Assembly (NCBI RefSeq): GCF_019721995.1
Contig: NZ_BLYC01000032.1
Span: forward strand, 1-34,531
Source of the DNA: Bathymodiolus japonicus methanotrophic gill symbiont
GTDB lineage: Bacteria; Pseudomonadota; Gammaproteobacteria; Methylococcales; Methylomonadaceae
Length of the DNA: 34,531 nt
Direction: 5' to 3'
Shown: positions 8,962 through 34,458 of the stretch, in pieces
Position numbering within the stretch: position 1 is the stretch's first letter
Layout: each line of letters begins with the position of its first letter
Translations under genes and position numbers: made by a program
Notes under the pieces: generated by a model
What the model saw: only the letters and a program-made list of their open reading frames with translations
Databases searched by the model: none
Told to the model about the DNA's origin: nothing

Positions 8962-10484
8962 CATCAGTGTTCCCATTGAAAGAAGAAGTACCTAAACAAA
9001 GCAGCCTATAACCTACCTGAAGGTAGCACCACTCGAATATTTCCATCTTTTTGATTTTAATCACTTATAACAGCAAATAGACACTCTGTAGGCACCGTAA
9101 AAAAACAACAAATAATTTCAAATAAAGCTTGCAATTACCGAAAAAAATTTCCGTTTTAATCACCTCATAAACGGATATCACCCATGCTTAAAGACCTACC
9201 ACTCTCTGAACATATTCACCAACACTGCAATGAAAGTATGGAACGTGCCCTGTTAGCAGAGCGTCATCCTTTGTGGGCTCGTTCATGCCCAGAGTTGAAG
9301 GATATCGACTTTATTCGCCTTGGGTTATTACGCTGTATCAGTGTAGTCGATAGTGGTCGCCATTTCCTCCAAACCAATGAACAGATTTATGGCCAGCTGC
9401 TTCCCCACTCAACGTATTTTAAATCACTGAAGTCGCATAGACGAACAAGTATGCTTGAGGCATTTGAACAGCAGAGCTACCATCTTCACTCTGAAACACT
9501 GCTATCGCAAGACATTGATTATCTTAAAGCATTACCGGAACTTGACGAATACACCATAGAAGCAGCGGATGGACATTTTATTGATCATGCCTGCCGTACT
9601 GAAAAAAACAGCAAGGGGAAAGTTTATGCGGCCGGGGGGATTTACGCGTTGAATCTCAGAAGTGGGTTGCTCAGATTTCTTTGTCTGGTGACAAACGGAA
9701 CTCAGAGGCATCAAGAAATACCTGTGTTACGAGATCATATTGAAAAGCAAAACAAGGGAAATAACAGCTCTCAGAAACATCTCTATGTCTACGATAAAGC
9801 CGTCACCGACTTTGTCTGGTGGGATCGGCAGAAACTACATGCTAATTACATGATTTCAATGCTAAAAGAAAATTCAATTGCGACTCTGGTTGAGTCTATC
9901 CCTTTTGACTCCCAGCATGAGATCAATACAGGGGTTGAAGCATACAGTGTGTACGAAAACAAGGGCATCAAATTTAACGTGGTGGATTACCGTGATCCAG
10001 AAACCGGAAAACTTCACCGGTTTGTGACAACCTTGCCAATGACTATTAACCCTGGAACCATTGCCATGCTGTATTTCAAGCGATGGACGATTGAAAAGAC
10101 ATTCAATAACACTAAAAGTAATTTCAAGGAAACTAAAGCTTGGTCTTCCAATACCCGCTCACTTGAAAATCAAATGCGCCTGACTGCAATGAGCTATAAT
10201 TTAATGCGCGTGTTTGAAGAGATTTCAAAAACACAACAGCCAGAATTGATTCATCCATCGGATAAAAAATATAGCGAGGCTCTGGAGATAAGGCAACAAC
10301 AGGCCCAAAAACGAGATCGTTTTGTGAATCCATTATTTTTCCAGGCAAGAATATCTCGTATCAGCTCGTATACCATTCGGGCAGTTCAAAACGCAATAAT
10401 AACAGGAATGTCTTTACAGTGCTTTATGAGCTCTCTTGTGGCGAGGTTAGTTTCACGGCCTCAATTGATAGGGGAACACTGATG
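8962..10484 (+). mobile_element. Complete IS4-family insertion sequence, copy B
   Basis: The element is 1523 bp with matching ends catcagtgttccc (8962-8974) and gggaacactgatg (10472-10484). It is flanked by the exact 8-bp direct repeat ctaaatca (8954-8961 and 10485-10492), a target-site duplication, so this is a single clean insertion. It carries one transposase gene. Compared with copy C it lacks 11 bases in the leader just before the gene (around 9145), where a short AT repeat could have slipped. It landed at the stop codon of the sigma-factor relic. Confidence 0.95.
9184..10482 (+). CDS. IS4-family transposase, full length
   Basis: The 432-aa DDE transposase cuts and rejoins the ends of its own element. 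Key features are the first catalytic region EAADGHFIDHAC (about residues 125-136), a second VYDKAVTDFVWWD, and the IS4-family YREK signature in YFKRWTIEKTFNNTK (Tyr, Arg, Glu, Lys spaced 2-3-6). ATG 9184 follows a short leader. The stop codon overlaps the right inverted end. It is nearly identical to the copy at 32927-34225, with only a few amino-acid differences, suggesting recent spread. Confidence 0.95.
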   Translation: MLKDLPLSEHIHQHCNESMERALLAERHPLWARSCPELKDIDFIRLGLLRCISVVDSGRHFLQTNEQIYGQLLPHSTYFKSLKSHRRTSMLEAFEQQSYHLHSETLLSQDIDYLKALPELDEYTIEAADGHFIDHACRTEKNSKGKVYAAGGIYALNLRSGLLRFLCLVTNGTQRHQEIPVLRDHIEKQNKGNNSSQKHLYVYDKAVTDFVWWDRQKLHANYMISMLKENSIATLVESIPFDSQHEINTGVEAYSVYENKGIKFNVVDYRDPETGKLHRFVTTLPMTINPGTIAMLYFKRWTIEKTFNNTKSNFKETKAWSSNTRSLENQMRLTAMSYNLMRVFEEISKTQQPELIHPSDKKYSEALEIRQQQAQKRDRFVNPLFFQARISRISSYTIRAVQNAIITGMSLQCFMSSLVARLVSRPQLIGEH

Positions 10485-19920: not shown

Positions 19921-20562
19921 ATGGCAACACCATTAATTCAAATGGCATTAGATTCACTAGATTTCGACGCAACTGTAGCACTTGCAGAGCAAGTAGCTGA
20001 TTCTGTTGATATCTTCGAAATCGGTACACCATGTATCAAACACAATGGTATTAACTTAGTAAAAGAATTAAGAGCTAGATTTCCTAATCACTTACTATTA
20101 GTTGACCTAAAAACAATGGATGCTGGCGAATATGAAGCCACTCCTTTCTATGCGGCAGGTGCTGATATTTGTACTGTGCTAGGTGTTTCAGGTTTAGCAA
20201 CATGTGCTGGTGTTATCAATGCAGCGAATGCACATGGTGCTGAAGCACAAATTGATTTGATCAACGTTGGTGATAAAGCAGCATGTGCACGTGCATGTGC
20301 AGAAGCGGGCGCACAGATTGTTGGTGTTCATACTGGTCTTGATGCACAGGCAGCGGGCGACACACCTTTTGATGACTTAGCAATGATTTCTGATCTAGGC
20401 TTAGACGTTCGTGTTTCTGTTGCAGGTGGAATTAATTCATCTACAATTCAGGATGTAGTTCGTGCCGGTGCTGGCATCGTTGTTGTTGGTGCGGCTATCT
20501 ACGGTGCAGATTCTCCAGCAGATTCAGCTCGTGAACTACGCGAATTAGTTGACGCTGCATAA
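19921..20562 (+). CDS. hps: 3-hexulose-6-phosphate synthase
   Basis: This enzyme condenses formaldehyde with ribulose 5-phosphate to give 3-hexulose 6-phosphate, the carbon-fixing step of the RuMP pathway. The 213-aa product is of standard length and belongs to the OMP-decarboxylase superfamily, with the D-x-K-x-x-D signature at Asp62, Lys64 and Asp67 (VDLKTMDAGE), the IFEIGTP start of the barrel, VGVHTGLDAQAAG, and the phosphate-binding VAGGINSSTI and VVVGAAIYGA loops. Codon use is cleaner and more uniform than in the neighbouring mobile genes, as expected for a highly expressed gene. phi follows 14 bp later. Confidence 0.97.
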   Translation: MATPLIQMALDSLDFDATVALAEQVADSVDIFEIGTPCIKHNGINLVKELRARFPNHLLLVDLKTMDAGEYEATPFYAAGADICTVLGVSGLATCAGVINAANAHGAEAQIDLINVGDKAACARACAEAGAQIVGVHTGLDAQAAGDTPFDDLAMISDLGLDVRVSVAGGINSSTIQDVVRAGAGIVVVGAAIYGADSPADSARELRELVDAA

Positions 20563-20576
20563 AGCGGAGTAAGACT

Positions 20577-21125
20577 ATGACGTGGCAACAAGAAAACCAG
20601 AAGTTGGTCATCAATAAGATTTCAGAAATTCTTGATGCAACTGATCTTGCGTACGCTGACCAAATGACAGAAATGTTTGACGGTGCCAAACGGATATTTA
20701 TTTCCGGTGCCGGTCGGTCTAAGTTAGTCGGTAATTTTCTGGGCATGCGTCTTATGCACAGTGGTTACGATGTTAGTATGGTAGGGGAAATCGTTACTCC
20801 AAGCATTAAGAATGGTGATTTATTAATTATCATTTCAGGGTCTGGGGAAACAGAGCAATTAGTCGCATTTACCAAAAAAGCAAAAAGTGTGGGTGCTAAA
20901 ATTATACTAATTTGCTCAAAAGCTGAGTCTACCATTGGCGATTTAGCGGATGGTGTATTCCAGATTGGCAAACAAGAGCTGTATCAATCAGTGAAAGGTA
21001 TGCCGATGGGAACAGTTTTCGAACTATCTACTTTATGCTTCCTGGAAGCAGTTGTCTCACATTTGATCTGGGAGAAAGATATTCCAGAGGAAAAGATGAG
21101 AGAAAGACACGCCAACATGGAATAG
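20577..21125 (+). CDS. phi: 6-phospho-3-hexuloisomerase
   Basis: It converts 3-hexulose 6-phosphate to fructose 6-phosphate, completing the fixation half of the RuMP cycle. The 182-aa SIS-fold protein shows both sugar-phosphate loops, SGAGRS (43-48) and SGSGET (87-92), the conserved MPMGTVFELS stretch (142-151) carrying the family's catalytic Glu region, and the C-terminal RERHANME typical of the hexuloisomerase. The gene is also called hpi or rmpB in some literature. It follows hps by 14 bp and is followed by two terminator-like hairpins. Confidence 0.96.
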   Translation: MTWQQENQKLVINKISEILDATDLAYADQMTEMFDGAKRIFISGAGRSKLVGNFLGMRLMHSGYDVSMVGEIVTPSIKNGDLLIIISGSGETEQLVAFTKKAKSVGAKIILICSKAESTIGDLADGVFQIGKQELYQSVKGMPMGTVFELSTLCFLEAVVSHLIWEKDIPEEKMRERHANME

Positions 21126-21181: not shown

Positions 21182-21212
21182 ATAGACATGAGGCTTTCTC
21201 ATGTCTATTTTT
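21182..21212 (+). terminator. Second terminator-like hairpin before tkt
   Basis: An 11-12 bp stem (atagacatgag / ctcatgtctat) with loop gcttt and a T tract to 21212. Its end is only 34 bases before the tkt start codon. It may be a second barrier between hps-phi and tkt, or a leader attenuator of tkt. Confidence 0.7.
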
Positions 21213-21245
21213 CGTTTAATAATTAAAAAAACTCTGGAGAACTAT

Positions 21246-23231
21246 ATGTCTTCGCGTAGAGAACTTGCGAACGCCATACGCGCTTTAAGCATGGATGCTG
21301 TTCAAAAAGCAAAATCAGGTCATCCTGGTGCACCTATGGGTATGGCGGATATCGCTGAAGTATTGTGGAATGATCATCTAAAGCATAACCCGACTAACCC
21401 TGATTGGGCAGATCGAGACCGTTTTGTTTTATCCAATGGTCATGGTTCAATGCTGATTTATTCATTATTACATCTGACAGGTTACGACCTGCCAATGGAT
21501 GAATTAAAAACATTCCGTCAATTACACTCAAAGTGTGCGGGTCACCCTGAGTATGGGTATGCACCTGGTATTGAAACAACGACAGGTCCTCTAGGCCAAG
21601 GCATAACAAATGGAGTGGGTTTCGCAATGGCTGAAAAGTTATTGGCGGATCAATTCAATAAGCCAGGGCATGACATCGTAGACCATAATACTTATGTATT
21701 TTTAGGTGATGGTTGTTTGATGGAAGGTATTTCTCATGAAGCTTGTTCTTTAGCAGGTACATGGGGCTTAGGTAAATTAATCGCCTTCTGGGATGATAAT
21801 AATATCTCTATTGATGGTCACATCGATGCCTGGTACACCGATGATACTGTTAAGCGCTTTGAAGCTTACCAGTGGCATGTAATCTCTGTAGACGGTCATG
21901 ATGCTGATGCAATTAATGCTGCGATAGCAGAAGCTAAAGCAGTCACTGATAAGCCTTCACTCATCTGTTGTAAAACAATTATCGGTTTTGGTTCACCTAA
22001 TAAGAGTGGTAGCCATGATTGTCATGGTGCGGCTCTAGGTGATGAAGAAGTTGCACTAACTCGTAAAGAGTTAGGCTGGACACCTGCTCCATTTGAAATC
22101 CCTGCTGAAATTTATGCTGGCTGGGATGGTAAAGAAAAAGGCGCTGCAGCTGAAAAAAACTGGGATGAGAAATTTGCAGCTTATGCAAGTGAATTTCCAG
22201 CAGAAGCAGCGGAGTTCACGCGTCGCATGGCAGGTGATTTACCCGCTAACTGGAAATCAGCAACCGATGCTTTTATTGCTGAGACTAACACAGCAGCAGC
22301 AAGCCTGGCTTCGCGTCAGGCATCACAAAAAACCATTGCAGCATTCGCTCCATTACTGCCTGAATTTTTAGGAGGTTCGGCTGATTTAACAGGTTCTAAC
22401 TTAACCAGTTGTGATAGCTTTACTCATGTTGACGGTAAAAAACCAGGTAACTACATCTCATACGGTGTACGTGAATTTGGTATGTACGCAATCATGAATG
22501 GTATGTCGCTGCACGGTGGATTAATTCTATTCGGTGGTACATTCCACATGTTCTCTGATTATGCAAAAAGTGCATTCCGCATGGCGGCATTAATGGGAAT
22601 TCGTACCATTGCAGTTTTGACTCATGACTCTATTGGTCAGGGTGAAGATGGTCCAACACATCAGCCGATTGAAAATACATCTGCAATGCGCTACATTCCA
22701 AATATGGATGTATGGCGTCCTGCAGATTCAACTGAGGTTGCAGTTGCATGGACTGCGGCTGTTGAGCGTATGGATGGTCCATCTAGTCTGGTATTAAGTC
22801 GTCAAGGTATTCCTGGGCGTAACCATGATGCGGCTGATTTTGCGGCCATACGTAAAGGTGGCTATGTGTTATCAGAAGCAAAAGGTGACGCAGCAGTTAT
22901 TATTATCGGCACAGGTTCTGAGTTAGACTTGGCAGCAAAAGCGCAAGAAGCTTTAGCCGCTGAGGGCATTAATGCCCGTGTTGTCTCTATGCCTTCGACT
23001 AATGTGTTTGATCGTCAGGATCAGGCTTATAAAGACAGTGTATTAACTCCAGGTGTAAAACGTGTTGCTGTTGAAGCAGGCGTCACTGATTTCTGGCGTA
23101 AGTATGTTGGCTTAGATGGCGCTGTAGTTGGTATCGATACATTCGGTGAATCTGCTCCTGGTGGTGTATTGATGGAGCACTTTGGCTTCACAGTGGATAA
23201 CGTTGTTAAGGCTGTAAAAGAAGTTTTATAG
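21246..23231 (+). CDS. tkt: Transketolase
   Basis: Transketolase moves two-carbon units between sugar phosphates using thiamine diphosphate and regenerates ribulose 5-phosphate for the RuMP cycle. The 661-aa product is of normal length. Visible are [19 protein letters not shown] with the substrate-binding His26, SNGHGSML (His66), the ThDP/metal motif [23 protein letters not shown], the [13 protein letters not shown] region with the catalytic Glu, and [17 protein letters not shown]. The frame extends upstream to 21201, but ATG 21246 has an ideal ggag site 6 bases before it and begins the conserved [21 protein letters not shown]. Confidence 0.97.
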
Positions 23232-23334: not shown

Positions 23335-24027
23335 GTGAAAAAAAATAATTTAAAAAAAGGTATATTTACTGCCTTATTACTTGCAAGTCCTTTTGTGACG
23401 GCAGGTACTGATTACCCGGCAGCTGATTTTCAACCTAAAATTTTGTATCAGGATGAAAGTTATCAGCATCAGGGTTCAGGGTCATCTAGTTCTTCTCAAG
23501 GCGAAAAATCAACTGCAGATGCCAATTATCCTGCAGCGAATTTTCAACCTGAAGTGCTGTATATAGACAAAGGTTACCAACACAAAGCTGGTACAGTTAC
23601 GAATAGTTCGGTTCCTCTAAAAAGAGCGGCTGTGTCATCTGCGGCTCCTGTTGAAGCAGAAACCACTACTTCTAGTGATGACTCTTCAATGAATCCTTTG
23701 TTTGCCATTGTTGTTTTAGGCGTAGCTGGCTTTCTTTATAGTAAGGCAGCTAAAGGAACAGCCAAGCCTAAGCAAGCAGCTGTATCAAGAAAGCCAGTAA
23801 ACTCAGGAAATTTTCGCAATGCTGATGGTGTCAGTGGCGTTGCTAAATATTTACAGAATAAAGTACCAAAGCTTTCTAGTGTAGATAAATATTTAGAAGC
23901 AAACCAGGTCGCGCCTAAATCAGGTGTTGCAAAATATGTTGCAAGAAAAGTCGTTGCCGCTAAAAAAACAGCTTCTGAAAAGGTAACGGGTGTAGAAAAA
24001 TATATGCGTAACCAGAAGCGAGGATAA
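23335..24027 (+). CDS. Unrecognised membrane protein with repeated GVAKY-type motifs
   Basis: I do not recognise this 230-aa protein. It begins with a basic, hydrophobic secretion signal (MKKNNLKKGIFTALLLASPF, then VTAG). The presumed periplasmic part carries a 21-residue motif twice, at 26-46 and 64-84 (YPAA[DN]FQP[KE][IV]LY...YQH), separated by a Ser-rich linker and followed by an Ala/Ser/Thr-rich stretch. A hydrophobic segment at 119-137 (NPLFAIVVLGVAGFLYSKA) is followed by lysines, suggesting an N-out, C-in anchor. The cytoplasmic tail contains four copies of [ST][GS]V-x-KY[LVM] at 167, 181, 196 and 218. GTG 23335 is chosen over GTG 23326 because aggtg lies just upstream. The next gene shares the tail motif. 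Confidence 0.85.
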   Translation: MKKNNLKKGIFTALLLASPFVTAGTDYPAADFQPKILYQDESYQHQGSGSSSSSQGEKSTADANYPAANFQPEVLYIDKGYQHKAGTVTNSSVPLKRAAVSSAAPVEAETTTSSDDSSMNPLFAIVVLGVAGFLYSKAAKGTAKPKQAAVSRKPVNSGNFRNADGVSGVAKYLQNKVPKLSSVDKYLEANQVAPKSGVAKYVARKVVAAKKTASEKVTGVEKYMRNQKRG

Positions 24028-24032
24028 TTAAC

Positions 24033-24689
24033 ATGGGATTTTTATCAGGTATTTTTTCCAGTAAGCAAACTAGTCAAAATATTTATCGTGATGATGTAAT
24101 CGAACCATCGGAAGACGGTTTAACTGGTGTCGCTAAATATCTACGTAATAAACCTGTTGAGCAGGGTGGTAGTGTTTATGCAAAAAAGTTAAGTAGCGTT
24201 GGTGAATATATCAATACGCGAAATGCTCGCTCAATTGAGCTTACGAGTGAAGAAAAAGACGTGACAAATGCCCGGCTTAAAGAAACGATAGAACTAAGAA
24301 AAATAGAGGAGAACTTAATGAGTGCAGAAGATAAAGAGTTAAGTGGTGTGGCCAGGTATGTTGAAAGCCAGGAGCAAGCCATAAGAGATGCCCAGGAAGC
24401 TGCGCCAGTTCTTACCGGTGTGGCTAAATATTTAACAAATATTGTTGAGAATAAGCCTGCTCTTACAGGTGTAGCTAGATATTTGTTTAATCGTGCTGAT
24501 GCGCAGGTAAGCAGTGTTGATAGATATGTAATCAAAAAAGCTCAGGCAGATAAAAATAAGCCAGAGGTAGTTATTATCCCTCCTTCTAGTGTGACTAAAT
24601 ATATCGAAAACAAGCCTACAATGCTAACGAGTAGTGTTGCTAAATATATTGCGAAACGAGTAGTTGCCCAGAAGCAGGTAGTGACCTAA
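24033..24689 (+). CDS. Unrecognised soluble protein with eight GVAKY-type motifs
   Basis: I do not recognise this 218-aa protein. It has no signal peptide or membrane helix. The start MGFLSGIFSS is short and amphipathic. The motif [ST][GS]V-x-[KRE]Y[LVI] begins at residues 31, 54, 104, 128, 145, 160, 186 and 200; most copies are followed by a charged or Asn/Lys turn such as RNK, ENK or AKR. A charged helix (about 70-103) lacks motifs. The spacing (14-26 residues apart from one 50-residue gap) and the Lys/Glu-rich linkers suggest short helices on a flexible chain that could bind several partners. It starts 5 bp after the previous gene, shares its motif, and is surely its operon partner. Binding partner and role are unknown. 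Confidence 0.85.
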   Translation: MGFLSGIFSSKQTSQNIYRDDVIEPSEDGLTGVAKYLRNKPVEQGGSVYAKKLSSVGEYINTRNARSIELTSEEKDVTNARLKETIELRKIEENLMSAEDKELSGVARYVESQEQAIRDAQEAAPVLTGVAKYLTNIVENKPALTGVARYLFNRADAQVSSVDRYVIKKAQADKNKPEVVIIPPSSVTKYIENKPTMLTSSVAKYIAKRVVAQKQVVT

Positions 24690-24727
24690 GTTTACATGCC
24701 CTGTTTTTATACAGGACAAACCCGCTT

Positions 24728-24771
24728 TGTAATCATTACTTTCAGCTAATAAGCTGAAAGTAATGATTACA
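24728..24771. terminator. Long perfect hairpin, 20-bp stem
   Basis: Bases 24728-24747 pair perfectly with 24752-24771 around a 4-base loop (aata). It could end the motif-gene transcript or protect its 3' end, but there is no T tract straight after it. It may also be a decayed palindromic mobile unit. Confidence 0.6.
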
Positions 24772-24786
24772 GAGAATAGCATTATT

Positions 24787-24836
24787 ATTTAAATCTACTT
24801 TCCTTACTATAAAAAGTAAGGAAAGTAGATTTAAAT
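24787..24836. terminator. Long perfect hairpin, 22-bp stem
   Basis: Bases 24787-24808 pair perfectly with 24815-24836 around a 6-base loop. It has a different sequence from the hairpin 16 bp before it, so the two are not a simple duplication. Confidence 0.6.
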
Positions 24837-25013: not shown

Positions 25014-25997
25014 ATGGCTAATTACTTAGACCAACTTAAAGCAGTAACTGTTGCTGTCGCAGACACAGGCGATATTGGCGCAATTGAAAAATTTACACCA
25101 AGAGATGCAACGACTAACCCTTCGTTGATTACTGCAGCTGCACAAATGCCACAATATCAGGCGATTGTAGATGATACATTAAAAGGTGCACGTGAAACTG
25201 TAGGTGCTTCTGCTCCTGCATCTGAGGTTGTTGGGCTTGCTTTTGACCGTTTAGCGGTATCTTTCGGCTTGAAAATTCTTGAAATCGTTCCGGGCCGTGT
25301 TTCTACTGAAGTTGATGCGCGCCTTTCATATGATACAGATGCTACGATTGCCAAAGGTCGTGATTTAATTGCACAGTACGAAGCTGCAGGTGTAAGCAAA
25401 GAACGTATTTTGATTAAAGTTGCTGCAACCTGGGAAGGTATTATGGCAGCAAAAGTGCTTGAAGAAGAAGGCATTCATACCAACCTGACATTAGTATTTG
25501 GTTTACATCAGGCGATTGCATGTGCTGAAAATGGCATCACATTGATCTCTCCTTTCGTAGGACGTATTTTAGATTGGTACAAAAAAGATACCGGTCGTGA
25601 CTCTTATGCGCCAGCTGAAGATCCTGGCGTTGTTTCTGTGACTGAAATTTTCAACTATTATAAAAAATTTGGTTTTACAACTGAAGTAATGGGAGCAAGT
25701 TTCCGTAATATCGGTGAGATCACTGAATTGGCAGGTTGTGATTTACTGACAATTTCTCCTGCATTACTAGATGAACTACAATCTACTGAAGGTAATTTGC
25801 CAGTTAAGTTAGACGCGGCTAAAGCAAAGGCGATGGATATCGCAGAAATCAATGTTGATAAAGCGACATTTGATAAAATGCACGCTGAAAATCGGATGGC
25901 GACTGAAAAACTAGATGAAGGTATTAAAGGCTTTGAAAAAGCATTGGTACTTTTAGAAGAGTTATTAGCAGGTCGTCTTGCTGAATTAGAAGCTTAA
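25014..25997 (+). CDS. tal: Transaldolase
   Basis: Transaldolase transfers a dihydroxyacetone unit between sugar phosphates and helps regenerate ribulose 5-phosphate in the RuMP cycle. The 327-aa protein is of the long TalB type: Asp17 in VAVADTGD, the [12 protein letters not shown] motif, [15 protein letters not shown], the Schiff-base Lys135 in [12 protein letters not shown], and [17 protein letters not shown]. It shares strand and cluster with hps-phi-tkt and is followed by an excellent terminator. The 324-bp palindromic gap before it suggests its own promoter. Confidence 0.97.
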
Positions 25998-32924: not shown

Positions 32925-34458
32925 CATCAGTGTTCCCCTATCAATTGAGGCCGTGAAACTAACCTCGCCACAAGAGAGCTCATAAAGCACTGTAAAGACA
33001 TTCCTGTTATTATTGCGTTTTGAACTGCCCGAATGGTATACGAGCTGATACGAGATATTCTTGCCTGGAAAAATAATGGATTCACAAAACGATCTCGTTT
33101 TTGGGCCTGTTGCTGCCTTATCTCCAGAGCCTCGCTATATTTTTTATCCGATGGATGAATCAATTCTGGCTGTTGTGTTTTTGAAATCTCTTCAAATACG
33201 CGCATTAAATTATAGCTCATTGCAGTCAGGCGCATTTGATTTTCAAGTGAGCGGGTATTGGAAGACCAAGCTTTAGTTTCCTTGAAATTACTTTTAGTGT
33301 TATTGAATGTCTTTTCAATCGTCCATCGCTTGAAATACAGCATGGCAATGGTTCCAGGGTTAATAGTCATTGGCAAGGTTGTCACAAACCGGTGAAGTTT
33401 TCCGGTTTCTGGATCACGGTAATCCACCACGTTAAATTTGATGCCCTTGTTTTCGTACACACTGTATGCTTCAACCCCTGTATTGATCTCATGGCGGGAG
33501 TCAAAAGGGATAGACTCAACCAGAGTCGCAATTGAATTTTCTTTTAGCATTGAAATCATGTAATTAGCATGTCGTTTCTGCCGATCCCACCAGACAAAGT
33601 CGGTGACGGCTTTATCGTAGACATAGAGATGTTTCTGAGAGCTGTTATTTCCCTTGTTTTGCTTTTCAATATGATCTCGTAACACAGGTATTTCTTGATG
33701 CCTCTGAGTTCCGTTTGTCACCAGACAAAGAAATCTGAGCAACCCACTTCTGAGATTCAACGCGTAAATCCCCCCGGCCGCATAAACTTTCCCCTTGCTG
33801 TTTTTTTCAGTATGGCAGGCATGATCAATAAAATGTCCATCCGCTGCTTCTATGGTGTATTCGTCAAGTTCTGGGAATGCTTTAAGATAATCAATGCCTT
33901 GCGATAGCAGTGTTTCAGAGTGAAGATGGTAGCTCTGCTGTTCAAATGCCTCAAGCATACTTGTTCGTCTATGCGACTTCAGTGATTTAAAATACGTTGA
34001 GTGGGGAAGCAGCTGGCCATAAATCTGTTCATTGGTTTGGAGGAAATGGCGACCACTATCGACTACACTGATACAGCGTAATAACCCAAGGCGAATAAAG
34101 TCGATATCCTTCAACTCTGGGCATGAACGAGCCCACAAAGGATGACGCTCTGCTAACAGGGCACGTTCCATACTTTCATTGCAGTGTTGGTGAATATGTT
34201 CAGAGAGTGGTAGGTCTTTAAGCATGGGTGATATCCGTTTATGAGGTGATTAAAACGGAAATTTTTAGAAAAATTTTTTCGGCAATTGCAAGCTTTATTT
34301 GAAATTATTTGTTGTTTTTTTACGGTGCCTACAGAGTGTCTATTTGCTGTTATAAGTGATTAAAATCAAAAAGATGGAAATATTCGAGTGGTGCTACCTT
34401 CAGGTAGGTTATAGGCTGCTTTGTTTAGGTACTTCTTCTTTCAATGGGAACACTGATG
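32925..34458 (-). mobile_element. Complete IS4-family insertion sequence, copy C
   Basis: The 1534-bp element has ends catcagtgttccc (32925) and gggaacactgatg (to 34458) and perfect 8-bp target duplications ataaacat (32917-32924 and 34459-34466). It is in opposite orientation to copy B (8962-10484) and almost identical to it. It has the full leader, including the 11 bases missing in copy B, so this is the standard length. It inserted just upstream of the start codon at 34465. Confidence 0.96.
32927..34225 (-). CDS. IS4-family transposase, full length
   Basis: The 432-aa protein is the same enzyme as at 9184-10482, with a few changes (for example GIDYLKAFPELDEY for DIDYLKALPELDEY). It retains the DGHFIDHAC region and the YREK motif YFKRWTIEKTFNNTK, and its stop overlaps the element's end. 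Both the gene and the inverted ends are intact, so it is likely functional. Confidence 0.95.
   Translation of the reverse strand: MLKDLPLSEHIHQHCNESMERALLAERHPLWARSCPELKDIDFIRLGLLRCISVVDSGRHFLQTNEQIYGQLLPHSTYFKSLKSHRRTSMLEAFEQQSYHLHSETLLSQGIDYLKAFPELDEYTIEAADGHFIDHACHTEKNSKGKVYAAGGIYALNLRSGLLRFLCLVTNGTQRHQEIPVLRDHIEKQNKGNNSSQKHLYVYDKAVTDFVWWDRQKRHANYMISMLKENSIATLVESIPFDSRHEINTGVEAYSVYENKGIKFNVVDYRDPETGKLHRFVTTLPMTINPGTIAMLYFKRWTIEKTFNNTKSNFKETKAWSSNTRSLENQMRLTAMSYNLMRVFEEISKTQQPELIHPSDKKYSEALEIRQQQAQKRDRFVNPLFFQARISRISSYTIRAVQNAIITGMSLQCFMSSLVARLVSRPQLIGEH

Follow-up and report, generated by a model that had tools for sequence, protein, structure and literature searches.

What do two short genes of no recognised family do among the formaldehyde-fixing genes of a methanotrophic symbiont? 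The window, that is, the whole stretch of DNA analysed, comprises 34,531 nucleotides of contig NZ_BLYC01000032.1 from the Bathymodiolus japonicus methanotrophic gill symbiont. Its RuMP cluster lies on the forward strand and contains the genes of hexulose-6-phosphate synthase (HPS; 19921..20562), which scores over the cut-off of TIGR03128, phosphohexuloisomerase (PHI; 20577..21125), transketolase (TKT; 21201..23231, true start uncertain) and transaldolase (TAL; 25014..25997). PHI was named by reading its sequence and the cluster, and TKT and TAL by reading their sequences. The first-pass annotation placed two motif-bearing genes between tkt and tal, and both were found there: gene 1 (M4; 23335..24027, forward strand), encoding 230 residues from a GTG start with AGGTG immediately 5', and gene 2 (M8; 24033..24689, forward strand), encoding 218 residues. 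We favour, with moderate confidence, the reading that the two proteins act as a multivalent tether and collect RuMP enzymes, foremost HPS as the proposed main client, at the cytoplasmic face of the membrane.

Two proteins built around one repeated motif

Both proteins carry the GVAKY motif, counted with the pattern [ST]-[GS]-V-x-[KRE]-Y-[LVIM]. A pattern count on the proteins gave four copies in gene 1 (residues 167, 181, 196 and 218; 23833..24006, with starts at 23833, 23875, 23920 and 23986) and eight in gene 2 (residues 31, 54, 104, 128, 145, 160, 185 and 200; starts at 24123, 24192, 24342, 24414, 24465, 24510, 24585 and 24630). These are the numbers claimed initially, with one position corrected from 186 to 185. 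Shuffled controls (20,000 per protein) contained on average 0.00095 copies for gene 1 and 0.00185 for gene 2, with a maximum of one. No copy was found in the remaining open reading frames (ORFs) of the window (9,629 residues), nor in the 186,417 residues of ORFs of at least 100 residues, motif proteins excluded, in the regions of 40 relatives. A search of the whole source genome with a 16-position motif profile (A1) recovered the 12 known copies, the weakest at E 0.30, and the next-best match had an E-value of 0.44. A set of 541 distinct motif units, collected from 84 proteins with a pattern that fixes the Val, gave the consensus [ST]-G-V-[AES]-[KR]-Y-[LVIM]-x-[KN]-[QKR], with motif-to-motif spacing peaking at 15, 20 and 22 residues. 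The S/T preceding G-V-x-K-Y-L suggests an N-capped helix. Each copy, [ST]-G-V-[AES]-[KR]-Y-[LVIM], probably forms a short helix of this kind, and flexible linkers, mostly of 8–15 residues, lie between the copies.

The motif was found to be under constraint. In a codon comparison with seven close relatives, with six core positions set on the window's sequence, the fraction of codon comparisons with an amino-acid difference was 0.103 for the core of gene 2 and 0.109 for that of gene 1, versus 0.351 and 0.352, respectively, outside the core. Synonymous differences were commoner inside the motif (0.340 in gene 2 and 0.385 in gene 1) than elsewhere (0.222 and 0.245). Among 26 gene-1 proteins, the invariant residues are G168, V169, Y172, V198 and Y201 in the motifs, together with Y27, P28, F32 and P34 in the first of two repeats described below. 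These observations bear on one alternative, in which the basic, flexible chains adjoining a formaldehyde-fixing enzyme would be Lys-/Tyr-rich proteins reacting with formaldehyde as sacrificial or buffering agents, or sensing it. Chemical buffering does not require that the Val and Tyr positions of the motif be held while the linkers are free to change, as is the case for V169, Y172, V198 and Y201, and we consider this alternative highly improbable.

Gene 1 looks like a bitopic membrane protein, judging from its sequence. A signal-peptide-like N-terminus, MKKNNLKKGIFTALLLASPFVTAG (23335..23406), was assigned by eye and is similar across the gene-1 alignment (profile A2). It is followed by two periplasmic repeats, YPAADFQPKILYQDESYQH (23413..23469) and YPAANFQPEVLYIDKGYQH (23527..23583), of the form YPAA[DN]FxPxV[VIL][YF]xDxxY, and then by a single putative transmembrane helix, PLFAIVVLGVAGFLYSKAA (23695..23751), which contains the best hydropathy window (1.73, residues 121–139). 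The motifs would lie in the cytoplasm, on a basic tail with 20 K+R versus 5 D+E in the final 90 residues. The earlier proposal of a membrane anchor with cytoplasmic motifs is consistent with this helix; the signal-peptide-like start and the conserved periplasmic half are additions to it.

Gene 2 consists of motifs and linkers behind a short, conserved hydrophobic start, MGFLSGIFSSK (24033..24065). The corresponding starts in relatives include NSLFGFLF, YLIDFFAEIFPF and GFLSSICGMLKGLF, and a full transmembrane-like helix is present in one relative (L059). Inspection by eye suggests that gene 2 may be attached to the membrane via this N-terminus. The first-pass description of gene 2 as soluble is accordingly doubtful in view of the conserved hydrophobic start. 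The best hydropathy window of the window's own gene 2 (0.67) is below transmembrane grade.

Neither protein matched a family over cut-off in Pfam and NCBIfam scans. Gene 2 scored below the cut-offs for TmaR/DUF496 (16.3 bits versus 122, 14.1 versus 170 and, in Pfam, 16.6 versus 23.2). A PDB sequence search with A2 or gene 2 gave no meaningful match, and searches of plasmids with gene 1 and of phages with gene 2 gave none. Elsewhere in the window, two tandem long hairpins lie between gene 2 and tal (24725–24774 and 24787–24836), with arms of 23 nt (96% complementary) and 22 nt (100% complementary); a terminator, an attenuator or a small mobile element are possible identities. The ORFs at 9160–10479 and 32930–34249, on opposite strands, have an identical beginning and probably both encode the transposase of one insertion sequence, present twice.

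Genomic linkage and distribution

Linkage was examined in the best 80 of 139 relatives, which came from 146 pattern matches in a search with the gene-1 alignment of a single genome for each species. The record titles of these 80 are Methylococcales or unclassified bins, and the named loci are nearly all from methanotroph-type Methylococcales. A gene-1 ORF is present in 79 of these 80 loci. TKT lies immediately upstream in 69 of the 79 and the contig ends there in the other 10; TAL lies downstream in 76, with a contig end in three. Among these 79 loci from the best 80 of 139 relatives, no arrangement other than TKT–gene 1–TAL was found as far as the contigs reach, and the initial placement of gene 1 in the RuMP cluster thus extends to all of them. 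The genes outside HPS and TAL vary between genera, so this linkage is more than plain regional conservation.

Copy number was found to vary in the same set. Gene 1 contains four motifs in 69 of the 79 loci, three in two and two in eight. Gene 2 contains 6 to 17 motifs in 62 of the 63 loci, from the best 80 of 139 relatives, in which it lies directly 3' of gene 1; the remaining one is a split gene with two copies. Together with the codon comparison, these counts bear out the expectation that copy number would change while the motif itself was kept. As a separate observation, gene 2 is split into two ORFs, with two and six motifs, at L040:390-1065 and L041:9322-10013.

The position of gene 2 is less fixed. 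In 13 of the 79 loci (best 80 of 139 relatives), the interval from gene 1 to TAL lacks it; in three of these (L153, L155 and L197) it lies between two HPS genes. It is also missing from this interval in three g12 genomes (L302–L304); an invariable place between gene 1 and TAL was therefore rejected. At L057, unrelated genes come after a 15-motif gene 2 and a gene-1 paralogue truncated by the contig end, and at L061 an acyltransferase-like gene comes after a 15-motif gene 2; the upstream side of both loci is lost at the contig end. In other families, the order is M-HPS-PHI, where M is the motif gene (L068, L070 and L294), and in family f10 it is HPS-M-TAL-HPS-PHI (L267, L269 and L270). HPS is near the motif gene in each arrangement uncut by a contig end (HPS-PHI-TKT-M, HPS-M-TAL, M-HPS-PHI and HPS-M-HPS), and is thus the constant neighbour of the motif genes.

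Some clusters are repeated. At L069:4666-18506, HPS-PHI-TKT-M12 occurs as successive units, the first and second identical (100%) over 5,000 bases and the second and third 99.2% identical over 3,400; at L059:2316-11500, the measured repeat spans HPS-PHI-TKT (100% over 3,200). For the Methylococcus capsulatus genome, PMC517821 reports a direct repeat of 5,267 bp, identical in sequence, that contains RuMP genes, and PMC8527097 reports duplication of the RuMP genes in every Methylococcus genome studied there; L069, with its motif gene inside the repeat, belongs to another genus. Such identical repeats, some with the motif gene, suggest that the dosage of the unit matters.

The wider distribution was surveyed with A2, which contains both the motif and the periplasmic repeat and therefore also matches gene 2 and other proteins with either element. 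Within the order Methylococcales, A2 finds a match in 265 of 301 genomes. All 36 negative genomes were tested for HPS, in two sets (18 without and 2 with; 11 without and 5 with): it was missing in 29, several of them incomplete, and present in seven. Among 74 A2-positive genomes of the order that were tested, 63 have HPS and 11 do not. The A2 E-values in these 11 are no better than 4.9e-20; five of the genomes (G068, G097, G222, G256 and G263) are at least 90% complete, and the match in G068, the sole one of the 11 inspected, carries no GVAKY motif.

In the class sample, A2 matches six of 369 genomes and HPS scores over cut-off in six of 369, and these are the same six; the two samples were treated as one 369-genome set, the displayed genome handles agreeing. 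One further genome (G553) is A2-negative and has a sub-cut-off HPS-like match alone. Three of the six belong to f10, a gammaproteobacterial family outside Methylococcales, where a motif gene with three, four or six motifs was again found beside HPS, between HPS and TAL, with gene 1 absent. In the same family, a 2,049-residue chemotaxis-kinase-like protein (L268:6248-12394) has motif-like matches, one of them an A2 hit (E 5.3e-5), which are probably due to chance.

HPS was also found without the motif protein. In the phylum sample, HPS is over cut-off in four of 398 genomes, and no ORF with two motifs was detected around the HPS of the three new genomes. In G1009's family, none of 100 genomes is matched by A2; G1009 itself, with two HPS genes, is the only member tested for HPS. 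Inspection of the HPS loci of G065, G071 and G079 (f6), and of G081 and G087, revealed no motif protein. As far as seen, then, the motif protein implies HPS, and HPS does not imply the motif protein. The expectation that the motif would always travel with RuMP genes, and would be missing from genomes without a true HPS, held in the 369-genome class sample; it needs qualification for the 11 of 74 A2-positive genomes, with weak matches, that lack HPS. Since other RuMP bacteria have no motif protein, the system is accessory and the pathway works without it, as the seven HPS-positive Methylococcales and G1009, all without A2 matches, illustrate. The original idea of a RuMP-enzyme scaffold is consistent with the cluster linkage, the co-occurrence with HPS and the retention of the motif; any suggestion that RuMP needs such a scaffold is not. 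Overall, the gene pair forms a system that is conserved in methanotroph-type Methylococcales and seems not to have been described before.

The periplasmic repeat also occurs as a separate module. It was found in small secreted proteins in 14 of 20 fetched regions (L118–L120, L122–L127, L132, L133 and L135–L137), and nine of these 14 proteins adjoin a NitT/TauT-like ABC operon (permease and ATPase). The small proteins, at about 9,400–10,300 in each locus, have two or more YPAANFxPKV-like repeats, most with a VIYP end. The same repeats form C-terminal tails of secreted Polyketide_cyc2 (SRPBCC) proteins (L121:9153-9932 and L128:9127-10026). The latter bear no more than a resemblance to MxaD; their membership of a methanol dehydrogenase cluster was considered and is unsupported by the scanned neighbours. 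Two further proteins (L130:1007-1660 and L131:9723-10364), encoded away from RuMP genes, combine a gene-1-like signal peptide, repeats and transmembrane helix with a different cytoplasmic tail; HPS is absent from the genome of the first (G068) and present in that of the second (G082). As the repeats occur without a GVAKY tail, the periplasmic half probably interacts with a partner of its own, leaving the GVAKY tail as the part specific to RuMP.

Could the two proteins instead be structural components of the intracytoplasmic membranes of methanotrophs, placed in this operon for strong expression and binding no RuMP enzyme? The bitopic appearance of gene 1, the hydrophobic gene-2 N-termini and the near restriction of the named loci (best 80 of 139) to methanotroph-type Methylococcales would fit such a role. 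We regard it as improbable, given that the motif gene lies beside HPS in f10, outside the order, that HPS is missing in 29 of the 36 A2-negative genomes of the order (some incomplete), and that L130, from a genome lacking HPS, and L131 pair the periplasmic half with a different cytoplasmic tail.

HPS as the candidate client

Which enzyme might the motifs hold? At HPS position 108, Glu was found in all 26 sequences that come with the system, and the 10 without it have Lys, Gln or Trp; no other HPS position behaves in this way. This count omitted four rows, all with Glu: two HPS sequences of G096, which has no motif protein on the contigs concerned, and two fused HPS-PHI proteins from system-bearing genomes. 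With these rows, the count is 28 of 28 versus two of 12, and 11 positions are found at a looser threshold. The tracking of Glu108 may reflect phylogeny. No PHI position separates the groups (23 sequences with versus 8 without the system), and TKT had zero outsiders for comparison.

Structure prediction with AlphaFold2 was applied to a natural stretch of L155 where a motif gene and HPS share one reading frame (61 rows, pTM 0.52). The HPS part was predicted with block means of 65 to 98. In this single job, which had no depth over the motif, one of six motifs, TRVEKYV, with its flanks (residues 23–38), has a pLDDT above 50, with block means of 75 and 65; the other five are below 50, and a degenerate seventh copy (109–114) is just above 50. 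The prediction, read from its confidence values, suggests, as a lead only, one motif site on the HPS subunit. In a prediction of the window's gene 2 with TAL (59 rows, pTM 0.48), no motif-bearing block exceeded 49, and residues 136–150, covering part of one motif, were just above 50; this control used a different motif protein from the HPS run, its TAL part was poorer, and each comparison consists of one job. HPS is thus the best candidate client, as the constant neighbour of the motif genes, with a Glu108 that largely tracks the system and one AlphaFold2 run pointing to a site.

A similar scaffold might have another partner (PHI, TKT, TAL or a membrane complex), or might bind mainly to itself, so that RuMP enzymes partition into the resulting condensate. 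This is a serious alternative, if an unlikely one. In the main family, TKT and TAL directly flank the motif genes, the sharing of one motif by both genes is as expected for a common partner or mutual binding, and three TAL positions separate the groups, against only two outsiders. Opposed to this, no TKT was found next to the motif gene at any of the three f10 loci, and TAL does not adjoin it in L070, whereas HPS is near in every arrangement read; moreover, no clearly docked motif appears in the TAL fusion and PHI has no tracking residue.

A proposed membrane tether for formaldehyde fixation

Methanol dehydrogenase forms formaldehyde, a toxic and reactive intermediate, in the periplasm, and HPS consumes it in the cytoplasm. 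In the proposed tether, the single transmembrane helix of gene 1 would anchor two to four motifs, with its two conserved repeats extending into the periplasm, and gene 2 would supply further motifs on a chain probably fixed to the membrane by the hydrophobic N-terminus. Both proteins would cross-link oligomeric HPS, which would offer one site on each subunit, into a membrane-bound cluster near the site where periplasmic methanol dehydrogenase delivers formaldehyde, and the periplasmic half of gene 1 would tie the cluster to methanol oxidation. The tether reading draws on the linkage, the co-occurrence with HPS, the motif constraint, the signs of an HPS client and the membrane signals; from these we infer motif–HPS binding, clustering and a benefit for formaldehyde capture. 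In a more specific form, the gene-1 repeats would dock on the periplasmic methanol-oxidising machinery and the motifs of both proteins would hold HPS beneath, so that formaldehyde is fixed while crossing the membrane. We put forward such a transmembrane hand-off only tentatively and think it rather unlikely.

Known scaffolds provide partial parallels. EPYC1 is the Rubisco linker of the algal pyrenoid. As in EPYC1, a disordered chain bears a short, repeated, probably helical motif, with variable linkers, a conserved motif and a variable copy number, and is here proposed to cross-link an oligomeric carbon-fixing enzyme via one site. Unlike in EPYC1, which serves CO2 fixation, the process here is formaldehyde fixation and the binding is only predicted; to our knowledge, EPYC1 has no membrane anchor with a periplasmic half. 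CsoS2, a carboxysome scaffold, is likewise bacterial and multivalent and repeats a motif that binds enzyme; in the present proteins such binding is putative. The present proteins differ from it in having no CsoS2 family match, a different motif and probable membrane anchoring. No Rubisco or shell genes were recognised in the cluster, where the neighbours in the window and its relatives are HPS, PHI, TKT and TAL. A synthetic assembly for methanol utilisation by Price et al. in 2016, a work cited in PMC8741260, reportedly brought methanol-oxidising and formaldehyde-fixing enzymes together; the system described here, unlike that engineered one, is natural, conserved and seemingly membrane-spanning.

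No description of the motif or the proteins was found in open-licence papers. The single literature match to the motif letters (PMC4265542) concerns designed peptides. The tether, if confirmed in its proposed role, would be the first multivalent motif scaffold of formaldehyde fixation known to us, none having been found in the open-licence literature.

In the 1970s, the HPS of M. capsulatus was reportedly described as particulate or membrane-bound, and that of other methylotrophs as soluble. If the tether exists as proposed, it would explain this difference, and the distribution of the system fits such an explanation. It would also show how a toxic intermediate is captured where it is made. 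The system is a candidate tool for synthetic methylotrophy, in which the motif could serve as a natural tag for enzyme clusters.
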